From Nitrospirota bacterium (GTDB lineage Bacteria; Nitrospirota; Nitrospiria; Nitrospirales; Nitrospiraceae), in NCBI GenBank assembly GCA_028876065.1, contig JAGWTI010000007.1, positions 1 through 61,944 on the forward strand: a DNA stretch of 61,944 nt. Direction: 5' to 3'. Shown here one piece after another: positions 27,049-39,862 of the stretch (positions are counted from its first letter, which is position 1; each line of letters begins with the position of its first letter). A program made the position numbers and the translations under genes. Below the pieces are notes generated by a model, which made no database searches, was not told the origin of the DNA, and worked only from the letters and a program-made list of their open reading frames with translations.

Positions 27049-28128
27049 ATGGCCAGCCCTCGCGTACAGCGGCTTCGTCTGGATGTCATCTGCGAGGCCG
27101 TCGGCGGCCACCTCTCAGGCCCGCCCGACCAACTCGTTACCGGCGCCTCCAGTTTGGAGTACGCAGGCCCCGGAGAGATCAGCTACGTCGAAAGCGAGAA
27201 GCACCTCAAGGCTGCGGCGGCCTCGAAGGCGGCCGTCCTTGTCGTAGCGCGCTTGTTCCCCGAGTTGGCCAGGCCCCAGGTCGTCGTCCCGCATCCGAAA
27301 TACGCCTTTGCCCGCATCCTTCAACAGTTTTTTGTGGCTCCCTATCAATCCCGCGGGGTCGCCGAACAGATCTGCCGCGGCCAGGACGTCCGGATCGGCC
27401 CCGACGCATCGATCTGGCCCTTTGTCACGCTGGGGCAGCGGGCACAGATCGGGGCCAGAGTCACCCTCTATCCAGGCGTGTTCGTGGGAGACGATTCCGT
27501 CGTGGGGGATGATTCGATCCTCTACCCCAACGTGACGGTACGGGAAGGTTGTACCATCGGCAAACGGGTCGTCATCCATAGCGGGACGGTGATCGGGAGC
27601 GACGGGTTCGGGTACGTGCTGCACGAAGGCCGCCACCGGAAAATTCCCCAACTCGGCGGCGTCACGATCGAAGACGATGTGGAACTCGGCGCCAATGTCA
27701 CGATCGATCGCGCCACGTTCGGCCAGACGCTGGTCAAACGCGGGGTCAAAATGGACAACCTCGTACAAATCGCCCACAACGTGACGATCGGCGAGGATAC
27801 CATCCTCGTCGCTCAGGTCGGCATCGCCGGCAGCACGACCCTGGGGCACCACGTCATCGTCGGAGGACAGGCGGGACTGGCGGACCACATCGAGATCGGA
27901 AACCAGGTCCTGATCGCCGCCCGTTCCGGAGTGAACCGCAGCCTGACCTCCAATCAGATCGTTTCCGGCGCCCCCGTCATGCCCCATGAAACGGCGATCA
28001 AGGCGCAGGCCGTCATTCCCCGTTTGCCGGAGTTGCGTCAGCAGATACGCGACCTGGAACAGCGGGTCCGGACGTTGGAAGCCGCCGGGGCCAAAAAGCA
28101 CAAAGCAAAAGGCAGCCGCGGCGACTAA
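27049..28128 (+). CDS. lpxD: UDP-3-O-acylglucosamine N-acyltransferase LpxD
   Basis: A 359-residue enzyme that transfers a 3-hydroxyacyl chain from ACP to UDP-3-O-acylglucosamine in lipid A synthesis. An N-terminal uridine-binding domain (about 1-100) is followed by a left-handed beta helix of hexapeptide repeats ([16 protein letters not shown] onward) with the catalytic histidine in [12 protein letters not shown], and a C-terminal coiled helix ([19 protein letters not shown]). The basic end [11 protein letters not shown] is an addition. It follows the acp gene after 18 bases, and its stop overlaps the convergent membrane-protein gene by four bases. Confidence 0.94.
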
Positions 28129-28679
28129 CGGCGCTTGCCTTCTTGCTGCGTACGGGCCCCTTGCGAGATCACGCCCCGCCAGCCGTACATTTTGGCCCAA
28201 AAGAATCCAGCCCAGGGCATCAGGAACGCCGCCACGGGATACACGTGGCCCCAAACCGCACTGACCGCGGAAGCGCTAAGCACGGCTCCAACGCCGGCCA
28301 GGTAAAACAGCGGGACATATGGCTGCCCGCGATGCTCTGGTGGCCGACTGAGCGACTCTTTCTTGGCCCGCTTCGGTCCGCTCTGTGAAAAGGTCTTCAG
28401 TCGGCCGGCAAAATACCCCGGATGCTCCCGAAGCAGATAGCGGTGATACCTCGTTTGTCCCCATCCGACCACCCCGCCCACCATCAGCAACCCGGTGCTT
28501 TCAAGAAACGTTTGCCAGCCGTACGTGTCCACCATGAACTGGTAGATCAGTCCGGCACTCCCGGCCAGCAACATGACGAAACCGAGGAGGACGGAAGGAA
28601 ACAGTATATGCGTTTTGACGTACTGTCGCGCCAATTCCGTTTCGTTTTCCACCCGTCTGGACGTTAGAAGTTTTGGCAT
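28125..28679 (-). CDS. Hypothetical membrane protein with four membrane segments
   Basis: A 184-residue protein. Hydrophobic segments lie at about 26-48, 58-74, 123-144 and 146-166, with a charged cytoplasmic loop ([20 protein letters not shown]) between the pairs. The two-plus-two arrangement suggests an internal duplication or a small channel-like fold, but I do not recognise the family. It is leftward and alone, converging on lpxD with a four-base overlap; its promoter should lie in the long gap to the right. Confidence 0.68.
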
Positions 28680-29253: not shown

Positions 29254-30276
29254 CTATCGGCACACCGCCTGCTGAATGGCCGCACGCTCGAGACGCCCGG
29301 ATTCGATCCACTGTTCAGCCCACTGGTGCACCTCGTTCAGACGCGCCTCGACCCGATCCACGCTCTGCGGGAGAATTGCAACGCGTCCGCGGCTGAGCAC
29401 TCGGACAAAGAGGTGTAGTCCGCCGCAAAACTGGGCGACAGGACCCGCCTTAACCGATGCAGCGGCCTCCTTCAAATCCTCCACGTCCTCGATCAGTTGC
29501 GCCACCTGTTTGTCCGACACCGACGCTCCATGGGACAAGGATTTCAATTCGGACAGTCCCTGGAGCAGGAGCGGCAGTCGTTGCCGCAGCTTGTCCAGGA
29601 ATGCTTGCTCCCGCCCCTCAAGCTCCTCGACCACCCGCAATACCGTCGCAGGGTCCGGATCGGCCCCCTCCCGACCGGCCTGGCTGCCCAGTCGCGCTAA
29701 AACGGACTCCACCACCCGTCCCTTGGCCCCTGGCTGCAGCCCCGTTGATGGTCGAAGCGCCTGCAGGACTTGCATGATACCGGAGGCATCGCCCGAGTCA
29801 GGCACCGACGCCGTGGCAGAATCGGCCGTGGGAAGTACGCCGGCTACGTCGGAGGTCGCTGGCTGCGCCAGCGCGTCCGCAAGCCGTTGGCGAACCGGTT
29901 CCAGATCAGTGGCGGCCGCTGAGCCGTGCGCGGCGAGCGCCTGCAACGCATGAGCCAGGGCGTCCAATCCCTCGCGGAACGCGCCCCAGCGGGGAGAGGC
30001 CTCCGGAGCTCCTTCGCCCCGCAAAGATTCGATCAGAGCCAAGAGCCCATGCGCAACCTGTTCGACCACCGTCAATTCGACGGTCGCCGCGGACCCGCCG
30101 AGATTGGTCAAGGCACGCCGGATCGTCTCGCAGAGCTTGTCGACCTTGTCACGAGGCGGATGCTGTTCGATCTCCGTTTGGGCTGCACGGATTTGGTCGA
30201 GCCATTCCTGTCCTTCGAGGGCAAAGAGCCCGACCACTTCTTCCAGAAACTGATCTTCCTGCGGATTCGGCGGCAT
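29254..30276 (-). CDS. Chemosensory-operon protein with a degenerate N-terminal Hpt-like domain
   Basis: A 340-residue helical protein, last of the chemosensory operon. Its N-terminus (FLEEVVGLFALEGQEWLDQI and RRALTNLGGSAATVEL) fits the Hpt four-helix bundle of ChpA/CheA proteins, but the histidine of the expected H-x-L-K-G motif is replaced by threonine, so it cannot accept phosphate in the usual way. The remainder is helical and partly coiled (LEGREQAFLDKLRQRLPLLL, AQLIEDVEDLKEAAASV). It may bind the kinase or the REC-coiled-coil protein encoded upstream as a scaffold or decoy. No exact family is recognised. Confidence 0.72.
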   Translation of the reverse strand: MPPNPQEDQFLEEVVGLFALEGQEWLDQIRAAQTEIEQHPPRDKVDKLCETIRRALTNLGGSAATVELTVVEQVAHGLLALIESLRGEGAPEASPRWGAFREGLDALAHALQALAAHGSAAATDLEPVRQRLADALAQPATSDVAGVLPTADSATASVPDSGDASGIMQVLQALRPSTGLQPGAKGRVVESVLARLGSQAGREGADPDPATVLRVVEELEGREQAFLDKLRQRLPLLLQGLSELKSLSHGASVSDKQVAQLIEDVEDLKEAAASVKAGPVAQFCGGLHLFVRVLSRGRVAILPQSVDRVEARLNEVHQWAEQWIESGRLERAAIQQAVCR

Positions 30277-30361
30277 GCAACTGCATCCCTATCATCGACT
30301 AGGATCGCGCCTCTCGGACGGTTCAGGCATCAGGAGCGGCAGCGTCTGTCCGGTGCCCTGT

Positions 30362-32026
30362 CTAATCCGCTCCGCCGAGGTCGGCCAACTGCTTCTCGAG
30401 CTCCGCCAGCCGCGCTTGCATCGTCGCGACAGCCTCTCCGGTTTCCAACACTCGTTGAAGCAAGCCGGCCGCCTCCCCTTGTTCTTGAACCAACAACGAG
30501 CGGAACTCGGCCATCTTCTGTTCGGCCGCCGCGCTCGACAAGGAGACGTCGGCCGAAGGTGGCGGAGGCGAACTTTGCAACCGTTGGAGGAGATAGGCAG
30601 ACCGGGTCTTTTCCTGCGCCAGCAACTGTTCCAGGTGGTCGATCCGCGTTTGGGCATCCCCCGTTACCGGCCCCGACGGAGTCTGCCCGGCCACCGGTTC
30701 CTGCCGCCCCGCCAACCTGGCTTCGAGCGTCTGGATGCGCTGCTGCGCCGCCTCCAACTGAGACGCTTGCTGGACCAACACGGCGGATCTGGCTCGTTCA
30801 TCCTCAAGGCAGCGGGTCAGCTCGGCAACCTGTCGCTCGCTCTTCTCCAACGCCTCGATGTGCGGCCCCAATTGGGCTGAGCGTGAAGATTCCTGAGCGA
30901 GGACTTGCTCCAATTCAACGATCCGTTGCTCCGCCTGCGCCAATTTGGCCGCCCGTTCGACCAACCGCGCGGACTGCCCTTGCTCGGCGTTCAGCGCGGC
31001 CTCCAGTTCCTTCACGCGAGCCTCGGCCTGGCCCGCACGCTTGGCTTGCTCTTCGCCAAACTGCAGCGCACGGGCCCGCTCGGCCTCGAGGTTGGCTTCC
31101 AGCTCTTTGATCCGACCTTCGCCTTGGGCGACTTGCTCCGTCAGAAGCGCAACCTGCACCGGCTGGCTTTGCCCGCTGGTCAGCAGGCTCTCCAATTCGT
31201 GAATTCTCGCCTCGGCGTCGAGGAGCTTCTTCGCCTGCTCGGCGGCGCCGGCGGCCCGAGCCTGCTCCTCGGCCAACCGCGTCTCCAACTCCACAATCCG
31301 GCTTCCCGCTTCGTCCGACAGCTCCGCTTGTTGAGCCGGCGGCGAAGATTTGGTTTGCGCCTCGGCAAGGGCGGCCTCCAATGCGGCGACGCGTCGCCGC
31401 GTCTCCTCGATCCCGAGAACCTGTTGAGCCAAGCCGGCCGACCGGTTCTGCTCATCCGCCAGCATGCCTTCCAATTCTTTGATCCGGGCAGCCGACTGGC
31501 GGAACGATTGCAGTTGTTCCTCCGTGATCTTGTAGACCTTGGCGGCAACCGGCTGGGCCGGCGCGGCCGGGGCTTCGGACGGCGCAGGGGCTTCACCCCT
31601 GGCGTGGATTGGGGCTTCAACCGGAGCGGGCGCAGCCGCCGGGGTGGCCGCCTGTTCGCCCCGTTTCCGCAGCAACTCGAGCACGCGATCCTGCAGCGAG
31701 GTCCCCTGGAACGGCTTTTTCAGCACCCCGTCGGCTCGGCATGATTCGGCCTGCTTGGTCACCTCATCATTGACGATCCCGGAAATCAACAACACGGGCG
31801 TGCCGGACAAAGCCGGCTGAAGCCGGACAAAATTGCACACGTCGTAGCCGCTTTTGTCCGGCATGATCACGTCGGTCACGACGACGTCCGGCTGCTCCTT
31901 GGCCAACCAGGCCAAGGCCTCCTCCGCATTGGCCGCGAGCGCCACATCCAGGCCGGCCCCCATCAACAGACGTTCGGCCACCTTCCGCACCGCAATGCTG
32001 TCATCCGCAACCAATATTCGTGCCAT
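30362..32026 (-). CDS. Response regulator receiver domain fused to a long repetitive coiled coil
   Basis: A 554-residue protein. Residues 1-120 are a receiver domain with acidic pair D8-D9, phosphoacceptor D52 (VVVTDVIMPD) and lysine in LKKPF. A Pro/Ala-rich linker (about 125-170) leads into some 380 residues of coiled coil made of about twelve imperfect 30-residue units with the pattern E-L-E-x-x-L-A-x-E-Q-x-R-S/A-A-x-L-x-x-Q. No DNA-binding, enzymatic or membrane domain follows. Phosphorylation by the operon's CheA could change coiled-coil assembly or partner binding, making this a candidate output of the pathway rather than a motor-binding CheY. Confidence 0.85.
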   Translation of the reverse strand: MARILVADDSIAVRKVAERLLMGAGLDVALAANAEEALAWLAKEQPDVVVTDVIMPDKSGYDVCNFVRLQPALSGTPVLLISGIVNDEVTKQAESCRADGVLKKPFQGTSLQDRVLELLRKRGEQAATPAAAPAPVEAPIHARGEAPAPSEAPAAPAQPVAAKVYKITEEQLQSFRQSAARIKELEGMLADEQNRSAGLAQQVLGIEETRRRVAALEAALAEAQTKSSPPAQQAELSDEAGSRIVELETRLAEEQARAAGAAEQAKKLLDAEARIHELESLLTSGQSQPVQVALLTEQVAQGEGRIKELEANLEAERARALQFGEEQAKRAGQAEARVKELEAALNAEQGQSARLVERAAKLAQAEQRIVELEQVLAQESSRSAQLGPHIEALEKSERQVAELTRCLEDERARSAVLVQQASQLEAAQQRIQTLEARLAGRQEPVAGQTPSGPVTGDAQTRIDHLEQLLAQEKTRSAYLLQRLQSSPPPPSADVSLSSAAAEQKMAEFRSLLVQEQGEAAGLLQRVLETGEAVATMQARLAELEKQLADLGGAD

Positions 32027-32065: not shown

Positions 32066-32530
32066 TCACCGATGTCTCGCCTGCTTGGCCTGGAGGCCAA
32101 GCAGGGCCAAGGAATACACCGGCACCTCTTCCCCCCCGATCACGCAAACCCCGATCATATCGGATTCCTGTCTCGCTGTCGTGCGAATCCCCGACGGGTC
32201 GAGAGTGTGCAACGTCGGAATGTCGGCATCGATGCACACCGCCATCAATCCATCACGGCGCTTGGCGACGAGGCACAGATGGTCGCCCGTGCCGCTTTGT
32301 ACACCGAGCCTGGCGGCCAGATCGTAGACCGGCAAGACCTCGTCCCCATGGCGGACCACCGCATGGACAAAAGGGGTTGTGCTTGGAATCGAGAGCGCCG
32401 GACTCCAGGGGCGCACGCCGCCGACCTCGTCCGCCCGTGCAGCCAGGCGACGCCCGCCCACCACGAAGGCCACCAACGACACCAGTGTGGCGGCGACTTT
32501 AGATGTCGGCCCACGGGGCGTCTTCAGCAT
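32066..32530 (-). CDS. CheW-like adaptor protein
   Basis: A 154-residue protein with a CheW fold: LVAFVVGGRRLAARADEVGG, then HAVVRHGDEVLPVYDLAARLG, then HLCLVAKRRDGLMAVCIDAD, and the last strands ESDMIGVCVIGGEEVPVYSL. CheW proteins link receptors to CheA. It is the second of two consecutive CheW-like genes, starting 32 bases inside the end of the preceding one, so translation is coupled. Having three CheW-type genes in the operon suggests that they serve different receptors or outputs. Confidence 0.83.
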   Translation of the reverse strand: MLKTPRGPTSKVAATLVSLVAFVVGGRRLAARADEVGGVRPWSPALSIPSTTPFVHAVVRHGDEVLPVYDLAARLGVQSGTGDHLCLVAKRRDGLMAVCIDADIPTLHTLDPSGIRTTARQESDMIGVCVIGGEEVPVYSLALLGLQAKQARHR

Positions 32531-33122
32531 CGCTCACTTCCTCGATGGGCTCCGCATCCAACTGGTCGGCAAGGTTCACTTCCTCGGCCTCCACCGCCTC
32601 CGAATCGTGGGGCATCGCTCGCAACGCCGGGCTCGGCACCGGCTCTGGGGGCTCGATCACGGCCGATGGCGCGGGCTCCTCCCGTTGCTGCCCGATCAAC
32701 CACGTGGAGTCGGGGACCAGGGCGACGCCCTCGCGAAACAGGAAGACCCCCGTGATCCATGTCCGTTCGGCCCCGGAAAAATGGGGCGGAAGCGGCTTGA
32801 TCCGACGCCGATCGAGGTCCGTGAGCCCCACGACCTGGTCCACATACAAGGCCAATATGCGATCGGCCGTTCCGCAGAGAACGGCTCGAGCGTCGGGGGT
32901 CCATGCCACGTGCGGCCAGCCAAAGCGGTCCGCCAAGTCGGTCACGGGATAGGTTGCGCCCAGCCAGACAATCGTCTGCCCGGGCTGAGCCGCTTCGGGC
33001 TGCACGATGCCGCGGACGAGATCCGAAGGAATCGCCACCGGCACCCCTCCTGAGATCACGACGAGAAACTGTGCCTCGGCCACCAGGACCGTCGCACCCG
33101 TCGTGCGGCCGCGGAGGCTCAC
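32499..33122 (-). CDS. CheW-like protein with acidic C-terminal extension
   Basis: A 207-residue protein. Residues about 12-150 form a divergent CheW domain (FLVVISGGVPVAIPSDLVRG, TIVWLGATYPVTDLADRFG, ALYVDQVVGLTDLDRRRI). Residues 150-207 are an acidic, proline-containing tail (EAVEAEEVNLADQLDAEPIE and onward) probably disordered. In Pil-Chp systems ChpC-type proteins are divergent CheW adaptors, which this may resemble. The start is GTG 33122. The end overlaps the next CheW gene by 32 bases. Confidence 0.78.
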   Translation of the reverse strand: MSLRGRTTGATVLVAEAQFLVVISGGVPVAIPSDLVRGIVQPEAAQPGQTIVWLGATYPVTDLADRFGWPHVAWTPDARAVLCGTADRILALYVDQVVGLTDLDRRRIKPLPPHFSGAERTWITGVFLFREGVALVPDSTWLIGQQREEPAPSAVIEPPEPVPSPALRAMPHDSEAVEAEEVNLADQLDAEPIEEVSDAEDAPWADI

Positions 33123-33186
33123 CGACCGCCATCCTTATGCTGCATACGCCGCCTCGCTGGGAAACAGAACGAACGGCCGGCAGGGT

Positions 33187-36057
33187 TCAGGCCCGCGCCC
33201 CCGTCGCCCCGATGCGTTGTTCGACCTCCAGAATCAAGGCTTTCTCTTCGACCGGCTTGGTAATGTAGCCCGTCGCCCCCATACTGAGCGCCATTTGGCG
33301 GTGCTTCTCCCCCGCTCTTGTGGTCATGACCAAGATCGGCGTGTGCTTGGTCTGCTGCCTGGCCCTCAGGGCCTGGATCACCTCATACCCGTTGAGTTTC
33401 GGCATTTCGAGATCCGTGATGATCAACTGGTACGATCGGGCCGACGCCTTGCGCAGACCGTCTTCTCCGTCCACCGCCGTGTCGACCTCATACCCGCCGC
33501 CTTCCAGCATCCGTCCGACAAACTTCCTCACGCTCAAGGAATCGTCGATGAGGAGAATGCCTGAAGCCGGGGGGCCGTGGTTCGGTTGGAGGGCCTCCGC
33601 TTCAACCTCCCCGCCCGGCAGCGCGACCGGCTGGGCCTCGGCGGCAGACAGCGCCTCGGCCGGACGGCCGCCGACCATGCGGCTGACGTCCACCACCAGC
33701 ACCACACGACCTTCGGGATCGATCGTCGCGCCGACATAGCAGGACTCCCGGAAGGGTTTGAGCGTCCCCAGGGATTTGATGACGATTTCCTGTCTGCCCA
33801 GCAACTCATCCACCGTCAAGCCGACCGGGCCCGTCGTGGTCCGGACGATGACCACCGGCAAGGGACCGTCCGACGGCTGCTGATCCTGCCCCAATAACAG
33901 GGCAAAGGACTTGACGTCGATCGCTTCGTCGCCGACCTGCAGAATCGCCCGCCCGCTCATCTCTTGGATCGCGCCCTTCGCCGGCAACACGACTTCCCGG
34001 ATACTGGCCAGCGGGATGGCATAGCGGTCCGTCCCCACGCGCACCAGCAGGGCGGTGGAGATCAACAGCGTAAGCGGCAGGCTCAGGGTGAACTTGGTGC
34101 CGACCCCTTTTTCCGTCTCGATGTCGATATGGCCGTTGATGGCCTCGATCGCCCGCTTCACCACATCCATCCCGACGCCGCGGCCCGCTTGGTCCCCGAC
34201 CGTCTCGGCGGTGGAGAAGCCGGGCAAGAAAATCAGCCGCATGGCCTCGGCATCGCTCATCCCCGCGGCCACCTCCGGACGGACGAGCCCCATGGCGATC
34301 GCCTTGGCCTTGATTCTCTCGACGTCGATGCCCCCGCCGTCGTCTTCGACTTCGATGACCGCCGCATTGCCCCGGTGGGCGGCGTGCAGATACACGGTTC
34401 CCGTCGCCGGTTTGCCGCGCGCCACGCGGACGGCCGTGGTTTCGATGCCGTGGTAGACCGCGTTCCGGACCAGATGTACGAGCGGGTCCACCAGCCGTTC
34501 CACCAGCACCGTGTCCACTTCGGTCTGCTCGCCCGACGTGATCAAATTGACGTCCTTCCCCGTCGCCCGCGCCATCTCTCTGACCGCCCGCCGGAATCGG
34601 GTAAAGGGGGTGCCGATGGGCACCATGCGGGCCCGCGCGATTTCATCCCGCATGCCGAGCGTCAGCCGCTGCAGATGTCCCATGTCCTCGCGCGCCTTGC
34701 GGATCGACCCGCTGAGCTGGGACATGGATTCGCCGACGTCGGCCGAAATCTCCGCCACGCGCCGCGCCAGGATGTTGAAGTCGTCGTACTTGTCGAATTC
34801 CAAGGCCCCGAAATCGCTGAGGGCATTGAACCCGGTCAATCCCGCTTCCCCCGTGCCGGTTGACGGCGCCGGCAACGTGAAGGCATGTTTCTCCTCGAAT
34901 GACCGGACCGATTCGAACAGCCTGTTTTTGTAGACCAGCACCTGACCGGACAGCTTCTCCAGCACCACAAGCCGCTGCTCCAACCGTCCGCGCCCGATGA
35001 CCAACTCGCCCACCAGATTGAGCAGCCGCTCCAACCGCTCCCGGCTGACGCGAATGACCGCGCCTTCTTCCACGTCCTTCGGAGCCGGCTTGGCCGCCTC
35101 GACCGTGGGGGCTTCCTGGGATTCGACCCGCGAGACCGGTTCGGTCGCGGCCGCCTGGGCGATGGAAACCGGTTCGGGTACATGGATCGTCACGGACACG
35201 GGTTCAGCCGGGGCTTCCACCATCAGCTGCAGCCGTTGCTTCACGGAGCCGAATTCGCCCCGCACCTGCGCAAGGAGTCGTGGGTCGCGCCTCAACAGCA
35301 AGCGCACGACGTCGATCGTCTTGAATATGGCGTCCGCCGTCCCCGGCGTGACCTGCATGCGCCCCTCCCGGACGGCCCCCATCAAATCCTCGACGTGATG
35401 GACCAGATCGCCGATGGCCGTGAACCCCACCGTGTAGGCGGAACCTTTGAGGGTATGGGCCGTGCGGAACAGCAGTTGGATCGTCTCCGGATTATGGGGA
35501 TCCTTGTCCAGTTTCAGCAGCGAGGCTTCGATCGCTTCCACATATTCCTGCGCCTCGGGAGCAAAATACGAAAACACCTCCGCGTCCAGCTCCGGCAACA
35601 AGTAGGTGTCCGACAGCGGCTCGCTCACGACGGGCGCCTCGGGCGAACTGGGCGCGGCCGTCGATGACGCAATGCGCCGGGCATGGCTGGTTTTCCAGTC
35701 CTCGCATGCCGCGTGATCTTCCATCCCCAGCCGACCGATCCGATCGATCTGGCTCCGCAAGAAGACAAGAAGGTCCCGCAAGACCGCCACGAGTCCCGCC
35801 CAGTCCTGGGAGGGACGCACGGAGGCTCCTTCGAGCGCCGTCTCCAACACTTCGGCCAAACCTGCGACCCCGGCAAATCCGTATAAGGAGGCCGCCCCCC
35901 TGAGTCGATGCGCCACAATGTATTCGGATTGAACGGATGCGGGCGCCGGCACGGAGCCGTCGGCCGGCTGCAAGACGGATTGCAGCCGATCCAGGCCTTC
36001 GACCGCCTCCGCCATGAAGACGCCGACCAACGAGTCGGACCGAGAGTCGCCGCTCAT
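33187..36057 (-). CDS. cheA: Hybrid chemotaxis histidine kinase CheA with two Hpt domains and a receiver domain
   Basis: A 956-residue kinase. Two Hpt domains precede the core: the first has H50 in AHRLRGAASLYGF, the second AHTLKGSAYTVGF near residue 205. Then come the dimerisation helices (RLERLLNLVGELVIGRGRLEQ), the HATPase domain with N box LVRNAVYHG and glycine boxes DDGGGID and GRGVGMDVV, a CheW-like regulatory domain (YAIPLASIREVV), and a C-terminal receiver with aspartate in LIITDLEMPKLNG. This is a shortened ChpA-type layout as used with type IV pili. ATG 36057 follows GAGGT; an upstream start at 36078 would add seven residues. Confidence 0.95.
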   Translation of the reverse strand: MSGDSRSDSLVGVFMAEAVEGLDRLQSVLQPADGSVPAPASVQSEYIVAHRLRGAASLYGFAGVAGLAEVLETALEGASVRPSQDWAGLVAVLRDLLVFLRSQIDRIGRLGMEDHAACEDWKTSHARRIASSTAAPSSPEAPVVSEPLSDTYLLPELDAEVFSYFAPEAQEYVEAIEASLLKLDKDPHNPETIQLLFRTAHTLKGSAYTVGFTAIGDLVHHVEDLMGAVREGRMQVTPGTADAIFKTIDVVRLLLRRDPRLLAQVRGEFGSVKQRLQLMVEAPAEPVSVTIHVPEPVSIAQAAATEPVSRVESQEAPTVEAAKPAPKDVEEGAVIRVSRERLERLLNLVGELVIGRGRLEQRLVVLEKLSGQVLVYKNRLFESVRSFEEKHAFTLPAPSTGTGEAGLTGFNALSDFGALEFDKYDDFNILARRVAEISADVGESMSQLSGSIRKAREDMGHLQRLTLGMRDEIARARMVPIGTPFTRFRRAVREMARATGKDVNLITSGEQTEVDTVLVERLVDPLVHLVRNAVYHGIETTAVRVARGKPATGTVYLHAAHRGNAAVIEVEDDGGGIDVERIKAKAIAMGLVRPEVAAGMSDAEAMRLIFLPGFSTAETVGDQAGRGVGMDVVKRAIEAINGHIDIETEKGVGTKFTLSLPLTLLISTALLVRVGTDRYAIPLASIREVVLPAKGAIQEMSGRAILQVGDEAIDVKSFALLLGQDQQPSDGPLPVVIVRTTTGPVGLTVDELLGRQEIVIKSLGTLKPFRESCYVGATIDPEGRVVLVVDVSRMVGGRPAEALSAAEAQPVALPGGEVEAEALQPNHGPPASGILLIDDSLSVRKFVGRMLEGGGYEVDTAVDGEDGLRKASARSYQLIITDLEMPKLNGYEVIQALRARQQTKHTPILVMTTRAGEKHRQMALSMGATGYITKPVEEKALILEVEQRIGATGARA

Positions 36058-36108
36058 CGAGACCTCATGCTCGCGCACCGCACCGGAGAGCCGGGATGAA
36101 TGGGGGGA

Positions 36109-37980
36109 CTAGGCTATTTTGAACTGCGCCACGGAGCTCGTCAGGCCCTCCGCCAGCTTGGCCACCTCTTCGACGGTTTGCCTGGTCTGGTCGGCCGATT
36201 GCAGCGTCGCCGTCGCGCCGCCGGTGATGTCCTTGATGGTGCGCGCCACTTCTTCCGTGGCCGCCGTTTGCTGGATCGACGATTCGGCGATGGCTTGGGC
36301 GATTTCCGCCGACCGCTGGGCGATCTGTGAAATTTCTTTGAACACGTCGCCCGTACGCAAGGCGGAGGCGGAGCCGGCTTCCACCGCCTGGGTTTCCTGC
36401 TCCATGGCCACCACGGCGTCCTGGGTTTCCGTCTGAATGACCTTCACCAGATCGGCGATTTCCTTTGTGGCTTGCGTCGAGCTCTCGGCCAACTTCCGGA
36501 CCTGATCGGCCACGACGGCGAATCGCGCACCGGCTTCGCCGGCGCCGGCGGCCTCGATCGCGGCATTCAACGCCAGCAGGTTGGTCTGCGATGCAATATC
36601 GCGAATCGTGGACACGATCTGCGAAATTTCCAGGGAGCGGTCGCCGAGGCCTTTGACCTGCTTGGACATCCGTTGCACCGCCGCCCGAATACTCTGCATG
36701 TCCTGCACGGTTTCCTGCACCGCGACGCGGCCCCGCTCCGTCGCCGTCAGGGCCTGCTTGGCGCTCTCGGAGGAAGCCCCGGCGGTGTCGGCCACCTGCC
36801 GCATGGACTGGGTCAACCCTTCGACCGCCTTCAGCGTCCGGGTCGATTCCTCCGCCTGGTGTTGCGCGGTCTGCGTCAGGCCGCCGGCGGTGTTGAGCAG
36901 GGCGCCGGCGGACTCGTTCACGCGTCCGGCCGCGTCGCGCACCTGATTCATGAGTTTGCCGAACCGATCCAACATGAGGTTGAACGCATCCGCGAGGTTG
37001 CCGAACATGTCGGCCGTCACCTGGCCGCGCTTGGATAAGTCTCCTTTACTGACCTCGGCCACCAAGACCAGGAACTCCATGAGGCGCCGCTGCAATTGGT
37101 CGCGTTCGTCTTCCGTTTGCACCAGCTTCGTGATCCGGTCCAGCATGGCGTTGAAGGAAGCGGCCATCTGGCCCAGCTCGTCTTTGCTGTCGACCTGCGC
37201 GCGGGCCTGCAGGTTGCCGGACGCCGCCTGCTGGGCGACCACGGCGATGTGGGTGACGCCCTCCGAGAAGAACCGGGCCAGGAGGAACCCGATGGCGCCG
37301 CCGACCAAAATGGCGATGCCGGCCCCGACGAGCACGACCTGCGTGCGCTGTTCGGCCACGGCCTGCCCGGCCTGATTCAGGTCTTTGGCCACGTCTTGCA
37401 CGGTGTTCAACAACTCGCGGACGCGGCCGGTCGCCGCGCTGTATTTGGTCGATACGTCCACGGACAAGGCCAGCAAGCCGAGATCCCGCATCATCGCCCG
37501 CTGATCGGGCGACATCGTCGCCGAGTAACTGTCCTCAAAGGCGCTGATCGCGCCCTCCGCGGCCGTAAAATACGCGGCCAACGCTTGCTCCAACGCCTGG
37601 TAGTCTTTGGCCTCGTCGCGACCGCTGGCCGACACGTGCATTTGCCCCGTCGCATAGGCCTGGAGCGGCGCCAGGGTCTTGGCCTTGAGGCCGGCCAACG
37701 GCTTCACCGCGTCATCGAAGTCGGTTTTTCTCGTGGCTCGACCGGCGGTCAGGACCGCGTCGTGATAGAGCCCCAGGTTCGAGCTGGTCGTGCCCAGATT
37801 GCCCAGCGCCACGGTGGAGCTCTCGTACACGACCCGGAGTTGCTGACGCAGTTGCTGAAGCCCGAGGAGCCCGACGATCCCGACCGCGACGATGACGACA
37901 CCGACGGCGGAGAAGCCGAGCATCAGCTTCGTCAGCGTCTTTTGATCTTTAAACCACGTCAGGAGTCCAAACGTCGCCAT
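36109..37980 (-). CDS. Methyl-accepting chemotaxis protein
   Basis: A 623-residue transmembrane receptor. Membrane segments lie at about 19-42 and 235-258. The periplasmic region between them (about 43-234) is helical, like a four-helix-bundle ligand domain. A HAMP domain follows ([20 protein letters not shown]), then a second HAMP-like stretch and the signalling hairpin with the conserved tip near residue 470 ([40 protein letters not shown]). The C-terminus has no CheR-tethering pentapeptide. It is encoded between CheA and CheW, like PilJ in Pil-Chp clusters, and may respond to the periplasmic heme protein encoded upstream. Confidence 0.94.
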
Positions 37981-38049
37981 GCCTCGCCTCCTTGTCGTCC
38001 GGGGGCGGGCCGGGGACCGGCCGTCAGGCCGCCCGCACCCGCGCCTCAG

Positions 38050-38562
38050 CTAGCTCTGTGGTTGTCCCGTTCCGCCTTCCACATAACTCAACAGTGTCGG
38101 AACTTCGACGACGCCGCCGATGCGATCGTCCATTTTCAGAATCGCATTCACGAAAGGGGTGGGGCCTTGCACGCCCCGTGACGGAGCCGGCAGGAAGTCC
38201 TCCTGGTGGACCGTCCGAATCTCCGGCACTTGTTCCACCATCACCCCGATCTGGTGAGGCCCATGCTTCAACACCACGGCGTAGGCCAGTTTGGCCCCGC
38301 CGGTGGGCAACCCAAGCAGACCGCGCAAATCCACGACCGGGATCACCACGCCGCGCAGGTTGGCTACCCCGGCCAAAGCCGCCGGCATCCCCGGGACCGT
38401 CGTCAAGTTTTCCACTTCGAAGACTTCCCGCACATGCCGCAAGTTGATGGCGAGCAGCTCTCCCCCGAGGCTGATGAGGCAGACCCGCAAGGGCGCCGCA
38501 GGTTTCGCGGCGACACCGCCGGCCTCCACGGTCTGTGGAACCGCGCTGTCAGGATTGCTCAT
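38050..38562 (-). CDS. cheW: CheW chemotaxis adaptor (PilI-like)
   Basis: A 170-residue CheW domain protein and the most canonical of the three in this operon: RVCLISLGGELLAINLRHVREVFEV, then LAGVANLRGVVIPVVDLRGLLGL, then VVLKHGPHQIGVMVEQVPEI, ending in FVNAILKMDDRIGGVVEVP. It lies between the response regulator and the MCP gene, so it probably couples this MCP to the CheA encoded downstream. GGGAAGGC precedes the ATG. Short N- and C-terminal extensions are not conserved features. Confidence 0.92.
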   Translation of the reverse strand: MSNPDSAVPQTVEAGGVAAKPAAPLRVCLISLGGELLAINLRHVREVFEVENLTTVPGMPAALAGVANLRGVVIPVVDLRGLLGLPTGGAKLAYAVVLKHGPHQIGVMVEQVPEIRTVHQEDFLPAPSRGVQGPTPFVNAILKMDDRIGGVVEVPTLLSYVEGGTGQPQS

Positions 38563-38595
38563 GCCTTCCCGCCATGCCGAAACGGACCGGAGACG

Positions 38596-38958
38596 TTACC
38601 CGAGCGCCTTCTTCACCGCCGCCAACAGCTCCTCCGCCTTGAACGGCTTGACGACATACCCGTTGGCGCCCTGCTGCTGCCCCCAGAACTTGTCGCTGTC
38701 CCCCCCCTTCGACGTGCAGAGCACCACCGGGATATTCTTGAACCGATCGTCGTTCTTCAAGTCCCGGCAAGTCTGAAATCCGTTCCGTCCCGGCATCACG
38801 ACATCCAGAATGATGAGTTCCGGGTGATCGATGACCAATCGGTCTTCCAGTTTTTCCGCGTTCGGATAGGACACGACGGTGTGGCCGGCGCCTCTCAAAT
38901 ATCCTTCGATCAGCTGCACCTCGGCGTTGGAATCGTCCACCACGACAATCTTGCTCAT
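38596..38958 (-). CDS. Single-domain response regulator (PilH/CheY-like)
   Basis: A 120-residue receiver domain with acidic pair D8-D9, phosphoacceptor D52 (IILDVVMPGRNGF), a conserved threonine (VVLCTSKGG) and lysine in VVKPF. The stretch GGDSDKFWGQQQGANGYVVKP is close to the PilH/PilG regulators of twitching-motility systems. It carries no output domain, so it works by protein contact or as a phosphate sink. It is the second gene of the chemosensory operon. GGAGG lies upstream of the start. Confidence 0.92.
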   Translation of the reverse strand: MSKIVVVDDSNAEVQLIEGYLRGAGHTVVSYPNAEKLEDRLVIDHPELIILDVVMPGRNGFQTCRDLKNDDRFKNIPVVLCTSKGGDSDKFWGQQQGANGYVVKPFKAEELLAAVKKALG

Positions 38959-38997
38959 GGAACCTTCGCCTCCCTTTCACTTCATGCTACCAGGATG

Positions 38998-39732
38998 TTA
39001 CCGGATCGGAATCGTCAGACTGATCGCCCCGGCCAAGTCCCCTTCTTTCATGCCTTCTTTTTTCATCCCCGTCTTGTCCCGCTCGCCCTTCGGTTCGCCA
39101 TGACATCCCAGGCAGAAATGGCCGAGATATTCGGGCTTCATCATGCGCAACACTTGCCGGCCATCCTGCACCAACACCCGGCTGAACTCCTTGCCCTTCG
39201 GATAGCTCGGGTCGGAGAACAGCTTCAAGGCCTCGGCCTCGAAATCGTCGGGCTTGTTGCCGGGAAACCGGTATTCCGTCGCGGTCAGCTTCAATTTCAC
39301 ACCGGTTTTTTTCGTGAACTTCTCGCCGGCTTTCCGTCCCCACGCAGCGGGAATAAAACCTTTGAAGGCCACCCCTTGCTTATTGAGCACCGGCTGCGCC
39401 TCCGCAACGACCTCTTTCCCTGACTCCAGGAGCGTGAGCAGCAAGCCGGTTTGCGGCGAGGGGGCGGCGCGGCTCAAATCGATCTTGGCCGTTTCCTTAT
39501 ATTTCTCGATGAGTTTGCCGGCGAAATAGTCGGCGGTGAATCCCTTGTCGCCCTTGGTCGGATCGTTGAGGAGCTCTTGATGTTCGGTCACGACGGTGCG
39601 GCCGGCCTGAATCAGCTTGATGAGCAGATCGGCGGTTTCGACTTCATTGGCTGCAGAGGCAGACAGGGGGAGACACATGAAGACAAGAAACAGACCGATC
39701 GCCAGGCTTCTCGAGGCAACCGCGACTCGCAT
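38998..39732 (-). CDS. Periplasmic monoheme protein with a Tll0287-like (DUF3365) domain
   Basis: A 244-residue exported protein. Residues 1-26 are a signal peptide ending PLSASAAN. The domain that follows matches DUF3365/Tll0287, a PAS-like heme-binding fold, and the single c-type heme site is CLGCH (HFCLGCHGEPKGE) near residue 205. It ends with GDLAGAISLTIPIR, typical of the family. It is the first gene of the chemosensory operon, so a redox or small-gas sensing role upstream of the MCP is likely but inferred. Start ATG 39732 has GGAGG; an upstream in-frame codon would add 13 residues. Confidence 0.87.
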   Translation of the reverse strand: MRVAVASRSLAIGLFLVFMCLPLSASAANEVETADLLIKLIQAGRTVVTEHQELLNDPTKGDKGFTADYFAGKLIEKYKETAKIDLSRAAPSPQTGLLLTLLESGKEVVAEAQPVLNKQGVAFKGFIPAAWGRKAGEKFTKKTGVKLKLTATEYRFPGNKPDDFEAEALKLFSDPSYPKGKEFSRVLVQDGRQVLRMMKPEYLGHFCLGCHGEPKGERDKTGMKKEGMKEGDLAGAISLTIPIR

Positions 39733-39862
39733 AATGCCCTCCTCAGTTGTACGGCCCAGGAATCGGACCATGCAAGATATCAGGCCTCACCCGTTCCGCA
39801 GAAACATGCAGCCATGCTCAGAAACGTATCCAGCCGATCAAAATCCCCAAAAATAACGGCTC

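Follow-up and report, generated by a model that had tools for sequence, protein, structure and literature searches.

The last two genes of a compact chemosensory operon in a nitrifier-like Nitrospirota bacterium (Nitrospiraceae; GCA_028876065.1, contig JAGWTI010000007.1) encode two proteins that appear to belong together. One, here called pseudo-Hpt, is a tandem of two histidine-free CheA-P1/Hpt-like bundles, as judged from sequence profiles and structure prediction. The other, here called REC-coil, joins an intact receiver to a coiled coil with a 31-residue repeat. We favour, with moderate confidence, the reading of this pair as a FimL-like non-phosphorylatable receiver dock combined with a receiver-coil output protein that resembles FrzS but can be phosphorylated, because both FimL and FrzS are published precedents. 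The window, i.e. the whole stretch of DNA that was analysed, comprises positions 1 to 61,944 of the contig (61,944 nucleotides), and its features are collected in Table 1.

Table 1. Features of the chemosensory operon and of related loci (positions refer to the window, except in the last line, where they follow the locus name).
Feature	Position	Strand	Evidence
Pseudo-Hpt gene, last of the operon, 340 aa	29254..30276	-	ORF; Pfam Hpt; AlphaFold2; fold comparison
C-terminal bundle of pseudo-Hpt (residues 187-339), second pseudo-Hpt; acceptor-equivalent E266, not conserved	29260..29718	-	Hpt HMM; fold comparison
N-terminal bundle of pseudo-Hpt (residues 5-137); motif ALTNLGGSAATV; acceptor position T57	29866..30264	-	profile; AlphaFold2; fold comparison
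REC-coil gene, 554 aa: receiver, linker and 31-residue-repeat coiled coil	30362..32026	-	ORF; Pfam; AlphaFold2
Coiled coil of REC-coil (residues 169-549), 31-residue units starting RIxELE	30380..31522	-	periodicity; AlphaFold2
Receiver domain of REC-coil (residues 1-125); D8, D9, D52, S82, K104; D52 codon 31871-31873	31652..32026	-	Response_reg E 3e-21
CheW-like adaptor b	32066..32530	-	CheW E 4.6e-12
CheW-like adaptor a	32499..33122	-	CheW E 2.8e-14
ChpA-like CheA: two Hpt, kinase, CheW domain, C-terminal REC	33187..36078	-	Pfam
Methyl-accepting receptor (4HB-HAMP-MCP), PilJ position	36109..37980	-	Pfam
CheW-like adaptor c, PilI position	38050..38562	-	Pfam
Stand-alone receiver, 120 aa, PilG/CheY position	38596..38958	-	Response_reg E 1.1e-22
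Tll0287-like exported protein with haem motif CLGCH, first of the conserved genes	38998..39771	-	PF11845 E 5.6e-23
HD-GYP-fused pseudo-Hpt paralogues, examples	L023:5906-8149, L031:9402-11654, L035:9477-11555, L036:7713-9998, others		

The operon runs on the minus strand from 39771 to 29254 and encodes, in this order, a Tll0287-like protein, a receiver, a CheW, a 4HB-HAMP-MCP receptor, a CheA, two further CheW proteins, REC-coil and pseudo-Hpt. The pair singled out by the sequence-only reading is real, both open reading frames lying exactly at 32026-30362 and 30276-29254 on the minus strand. The next notable minus-strand frame (28125-28679), about 570 bp beyond pseudo-Hpt, has no Pfam match. 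The operon contains three receivers (PilG-like, CheA-REC and REC-coil). The order receiver-CheW-receptor-CheA is common to this operon and Pil-Chp (PilGHIJ-ChpA), as are a CheA that carries several Hpt domains and ends in a receiver, and the presence of PilT alongside. With respect to Pil-Chp, the operon contains in addition two CheW genes, the receiver-coil, pseudo-Hpt and the Tll0287 haem protein, whereas no methyltransferase or methylesterase gene (cheR, cheB) was seen within the conserved operon stretch (32066-39771 of the window); the adaptation enzymes must be encoded elsewhere or be absent. The Tll0287-like protein, kept in several relatives, seems to have a signal peptide, carries the haem motif CLGCH (CxxCH), and is a candidate periplasmic haem/redox sensor feeding the receptor. 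In several Nitrospira-type operons (L031, L035-L041) CheA has three Hpt domains, not two.

This chp/pil-like operon is conserved across Nitrospiraceae and one sister family. PilT was found in 21 of the 22 genomes with the operon, as compared to 9 of the 19 without it, and PilB/PilT/PilU-type ATPases are encoded in the window's own genome. A search for FimV_core gave no match, but was equally silent in the controls, and a literature search on chemosensory and type IV pilus systems of Nitrospira returned nothing relevant in the collection searched.

The N-terminal bundle of pseudo-Hpt had been aligned with Hpt domains on the basis of a short motif. Pfam supported this assignment, PF01627 (Hpt) matching residues 14-113 with an E value of 2.1e-11, and so did a profile of 22 homologues, which matched the P1 domain of Thermotoga CheA (2ld6 and 1tqg, at 9.6e-9 and 7.8e-8) and placed LTNLGGSA of pseudo-Hpt on LHTLKGMA of that domain. 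The whole-genome Hpt scan gave a second match above the curated Pfam cut-off in the C-terminal half (29320-29607), and both halves of the protein exceed that cut-off. The AlphaFold2 model (71 aligned sequences, mean pLDDT 86) places a helical bundle at the N-terminus, as had been expected, and a second one in the C-terminal half, with a disordered linker around residues 138-166 between them. When superposed on CheA P1 domains, the N-terminal bundle gave a Z of 15.8 and an rmsd of 2.8 over 125 residues with 1i5n_A, and a Z of 15.7 with 3kyi_A, the CheA3 P1 crystallised with CheY6; the C-terminal bundle gave a Z of 13.8 and an rmsd of 2.2 over 105 residues with 1tqg. These Z values exceed the tool's warning level for helical bundles, that of the C-terminal bundle only just, and the Hpt sequence matches are independent of them. 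A chance resemblance to Hpt is ruled out by the Pfam, profile and fold matches, and a lone pseudo-Hpt followed by an unrelated C-terminus by the Pfam and fold assignment of the second bundle.

Pseudo-Hpt has fold and sequence profile in common with CheA P1/Hpt (PF01627; 1i5n, 1tqg, 3kyi) but differs from it at the acceptor position, where, when the motif is aligned to HTLKGSA, T57 (codon ACC, 30108-30106) is found. The claim that the phosphorylatable histidine is missing holds well beyond this genome: in 124 distinct homologues the N-terminal site is Thr in 99, Ser in 11, Ala in 4, Met in 4, Asn in 3, Gly in 2 and Ile in 1, and none has His, which rules out a sequencing error or a local loss. 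L59, S62 and A63 are invariant in the same homologues, and the Lys of HxxKG is mostly lost. The C-terminal site is mostly Glu or Ala, with a non-conserved His in 2 of the 124. Both Hpt domains of the operon CheA carry the histidine (AHRLRGAA and AHTLKGSA), thus the loss is specific to the pseudo-Hpt family. Considering how often Thr or Ser occupies the N-terminal site, and that Thr and Ser versions of the so-called Xpt domains are present in ChpA (PMC12632253), Thr57 might itself be the phosphoacceptor, as has been proposed for those domains. We consider this very improbable, since the site is A, M, N, I or G in 14 of the 124 homologues, the HxxKG lysine is mostly gone, and only five of the nine Xpt domains of ChpA, all of them Hpt, proved capable of phosphotransfer (PMC12632253).

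The receiver of REC-coil had been described as intact at D52, and this is confirmed by the GAC codon (31873-31871) and by the orthologues: D8, D9, D52, S82, K104 and P105 are invariant in 76 out of 76 distinct sequences. Many receivers have an aromatic switch residue at the position corresponding to 101, which is V101 here and Val or Ile in all 76 orthologues. The PilG-like receiver, unlike that of REC-coil, has Tyr at this position. In the AlphaFold2 model an alpha/beta receiver fold is followed by a linker predicted to be disordered (127-168) and by helices of up to 153 residues (169-226, 230-284, 289-441, 457-484, 498-529 and 531-549).

The C-terminal part had been proposed to be a regular coiled coil built from units of about 30 residues. 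At both 3.4 and 3.5 residues per turn, its hydrophobic power was higher than in all 200 shuffles, and autocorrelation at lags 31 (z 9.2) and 62 (z 6.9) refined the repeat to exactly 31 residues. Of 14 orthologues tested, 12 had lag 31 in first or second place, and the best period fell between 3.42 and 3.46 in all but one of the 14. A ratio of 31/9 = 3.44, i.e. four heptads plus three residues, would correspond to a regular stammer; a literature search on 31-residue coiled coils with periodic stammers found nothing relevant in the collection searched. Genuine orthologues range from 225 to 574 residues in total length, and close relatives repeatedly differ by indels of 31 or 62 residues in the coil, and also by ones of 25 and 56, although the pairs compared are not independent. 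The coil can thus change in length during evolution, the receiver staying constant, which suggests that the coil is a spacer or rod. In Nitrospira orthologues (L067-L115 loci) the variable-length coil is followed by a nearly invariant C-terminal tail, FE(D/E)MARKLGEIAGLASQLG, that is missing from the window's REC-coil and from that of a genus-mate (L021).

Wherever both genes could be read, which was the case in 53 loci, the REC-coil gene lies directly upstream of pseudo-Hpt, with a gap of 20-146 bp. Of 41 relatives, the 22 that have full-length pseudo-Hpt are precisely those with the orthologous operon CheA, with no exception (Fisher p 4e-12, a nominal value that is too small because the genomes are related). 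Across 296 Nitrospirota genomes, full-length pseudo-Hpt is confined to Nitrospiraceae and one sister family, and outside these two families only CheA-type frames match, over the N-terminal bundle. When 84,980 species genomes were scanned, nearly all of the matching records were from Nitrospira/Nitrospirota, the search pattern being biased to close relatives. No natural fusion between a receiver and pseudo-Hpt was found.

Taken with its operon context, the pairing of pseudo-Hpt and REC-coil has the appearance of the Pseudomonas FimL scaffold in a new form. FimL of Pseudomonas and Acinetobacter, compared here by its published description, shares the Hpt fold with pseudo-Hpt: it has two Hpt-like domains related to the CheA N-terminus, with Gln and no His at both acceptor sites (PMC3019171), and is tied to a Chp-type system and to type IV pili. 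FimL acts together with ChpA in recruiting PilG to the pole, where FimL keeps at least the unphosphorylated form (PMC10519157), and FimL and PilG of Acinetobacter baylyi share their location with FimV (PMC9596432). The differences are that pseudo-Hpt is encoded inside the chemosensory operon, while fimL lies outside it in both genera (PMC9596432), that its N-terminal site is Thr instead of Gln, and that it is paired with a receiver-coil, whereas FimL acts on PilG. The counterpart of REC-coil is FrzS/AglZ of Myxococcus, with an N-terminal receiver and a large C-terminal coiled coil (PMC1974792, PMC11580455). Type IV pili at a pole are under the control of FrzS (PMC1974792, PMC11580455), its receiver binding a pilus activator and its coil targeting the pole (PMC11580455); it has, however, a pseudo-receiver without the Asp, while REC-coil keeps all phosphorylation residues (76/76) and, unlike FrzS/AglZ, has a strict 31-residue repeat.

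We infer receiver binding, a scaffold role and a link to pili. Pseudo-Hpt would serve a chemosensory system of the type IV pilus (Chp/Pil) kind as its FimL-like scaffold, and in this system, judging from domain content, the receptor would drive CheA, and the His-bearing Hpt domains of CheA would phosphorylate the receivers of the system. P1/Hpt is a receiver- and kinase-binding fold, and having lost the acceptor it could bind but not transfer. The tandem bundles would thus retain the P1 fold recognised by receivers, neither donating nor accepting phosphate, and may hold a receiver in place, concentrating it near its site of action. REC-coil would be the output or structural protein, with phosphorylation of D52 turning docking on or off, and its rod of 31-residue units may, as a spacer or in oligomeric form, bring the complex into position, akin to the FrzS coil in Myxococcus.

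The docked partner could be any of the three operon receivers. The neighbouring REC-coil is the favoured candidate, with the PilG-like receiver as the alternative. REC-coil gave weak partial distance correlations with the two bundles (0.22 and 0.25) and was the only one of the three receivers to correlate positively with both, the values being -0.17 and -0.20 for the PilG-like receiver and about 0 for CheA-REC. CheW_b and CheA-Hpt2 correlated with the C-terminal bundle at least as highly as REC-coil did, as might be expected if the bundles were an adaptor that binds CheA, CheW, the coil or the pilus motor, the adjacency of REC-coil reflecting operon order; docking might also take place at the conserved tail that REC-coil has in Nitrospira. 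We consider such a non-receiver partner unlikely, given that receivers are the typical binding partners of Hpt/P1 folds, 3kyi being one example, and that the adjacency is strict in 53 of 53 loci. The sequence-only reading had suggested docking without phosphotransfer, which stands as a well-motivated hypothesis: acceptor loss, the P1 fold, the 53/53 pairing, the 22/22 co-occurrence with CheA and the FimL precedent (PMC3019171, PMC10519157) argue for it, while the presence of three receivers, any of which could be the partner, and the weak REC-coil correlation (0.22-0.25) speak against regarding it as established.

The operon context, the second bundle and the FimL precedent go beyond that reading, and so does a set of paralogues. 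A second pseudo-Hpt match, in a frame of about 620-780 aa, was found in 40 of the 296 Nitrospirota genomes searched. In the loci read, this copy lies just downstream of the stand-alone pseudo-Hpt and is fused behind an HD-GYP domain (HD_5 E 1e-30), a further difference from FimL, and 33 distinct fusions have the HD(I/V)G and HE..xGxGYPN motifs. The genome scan showed a single pseudo-Hpt and no such fusion in the window's genome. The HD-GYP-fused paralogue hints at a c-di-GMP branch: in the many Nitrospira that have it, the same dock may bring a c-di-GMP phosphodiesterase to the receiver.

These paralogues also bear on the possibility that pseudo-Hpt is a decoy or antagonist, competing with CheA P1/Hpt for binding to receivers or to the CheA kinase domain and damping phosphotransfer. 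The P1 fold common to pseudo-Hpt and CheA is compatible with this, as are its permanence inside a kinase operon and the fact that its nearest relative in the window is Hpt2 of the operon CheA (E 2.8e-4 to 1.5e-8). Nevertheless, we hold it to be improbable, because the second bundle and the HD-GYP fusions suit recruitment better than mere competition, and because FimL promotes the Chp-linked output instead of blocking it (PMC3019171). Returning to the docking reading, a more speculative extension, which we put forward as doubtful, is that the dock is exchangeable: the stand-alone copy would park a phospho-switchable receiver-coil, the HD-GYP-fused copy would deliver a c-di-GMP phosphodiesterase to the same receiver, and the coil, growing in 31-residue steps, would be an evolvable ruler between the receiver and a C-terminal anchor. 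If this were true, chemosensory phosphorylation would directly gate where c-di-GMP is destroyed.

To our knowledge, FimL has been described in gammaproteobacteria, with its gene apart from the chp operon and no mechanism to account for how a dead Hpt recognises a receiver. The deeply conserved, operon-linked pair of pseudo-Hpt and receiver in Nitrospirota, the phylum of major nitrite oxidisers, would offer a natural minimal system for phosphotransfer-free docking, and possibly a direct route by which chemosensory signalling reaches c-di-GMP turnover and life on surfaces in organisms relevant to nitrification.
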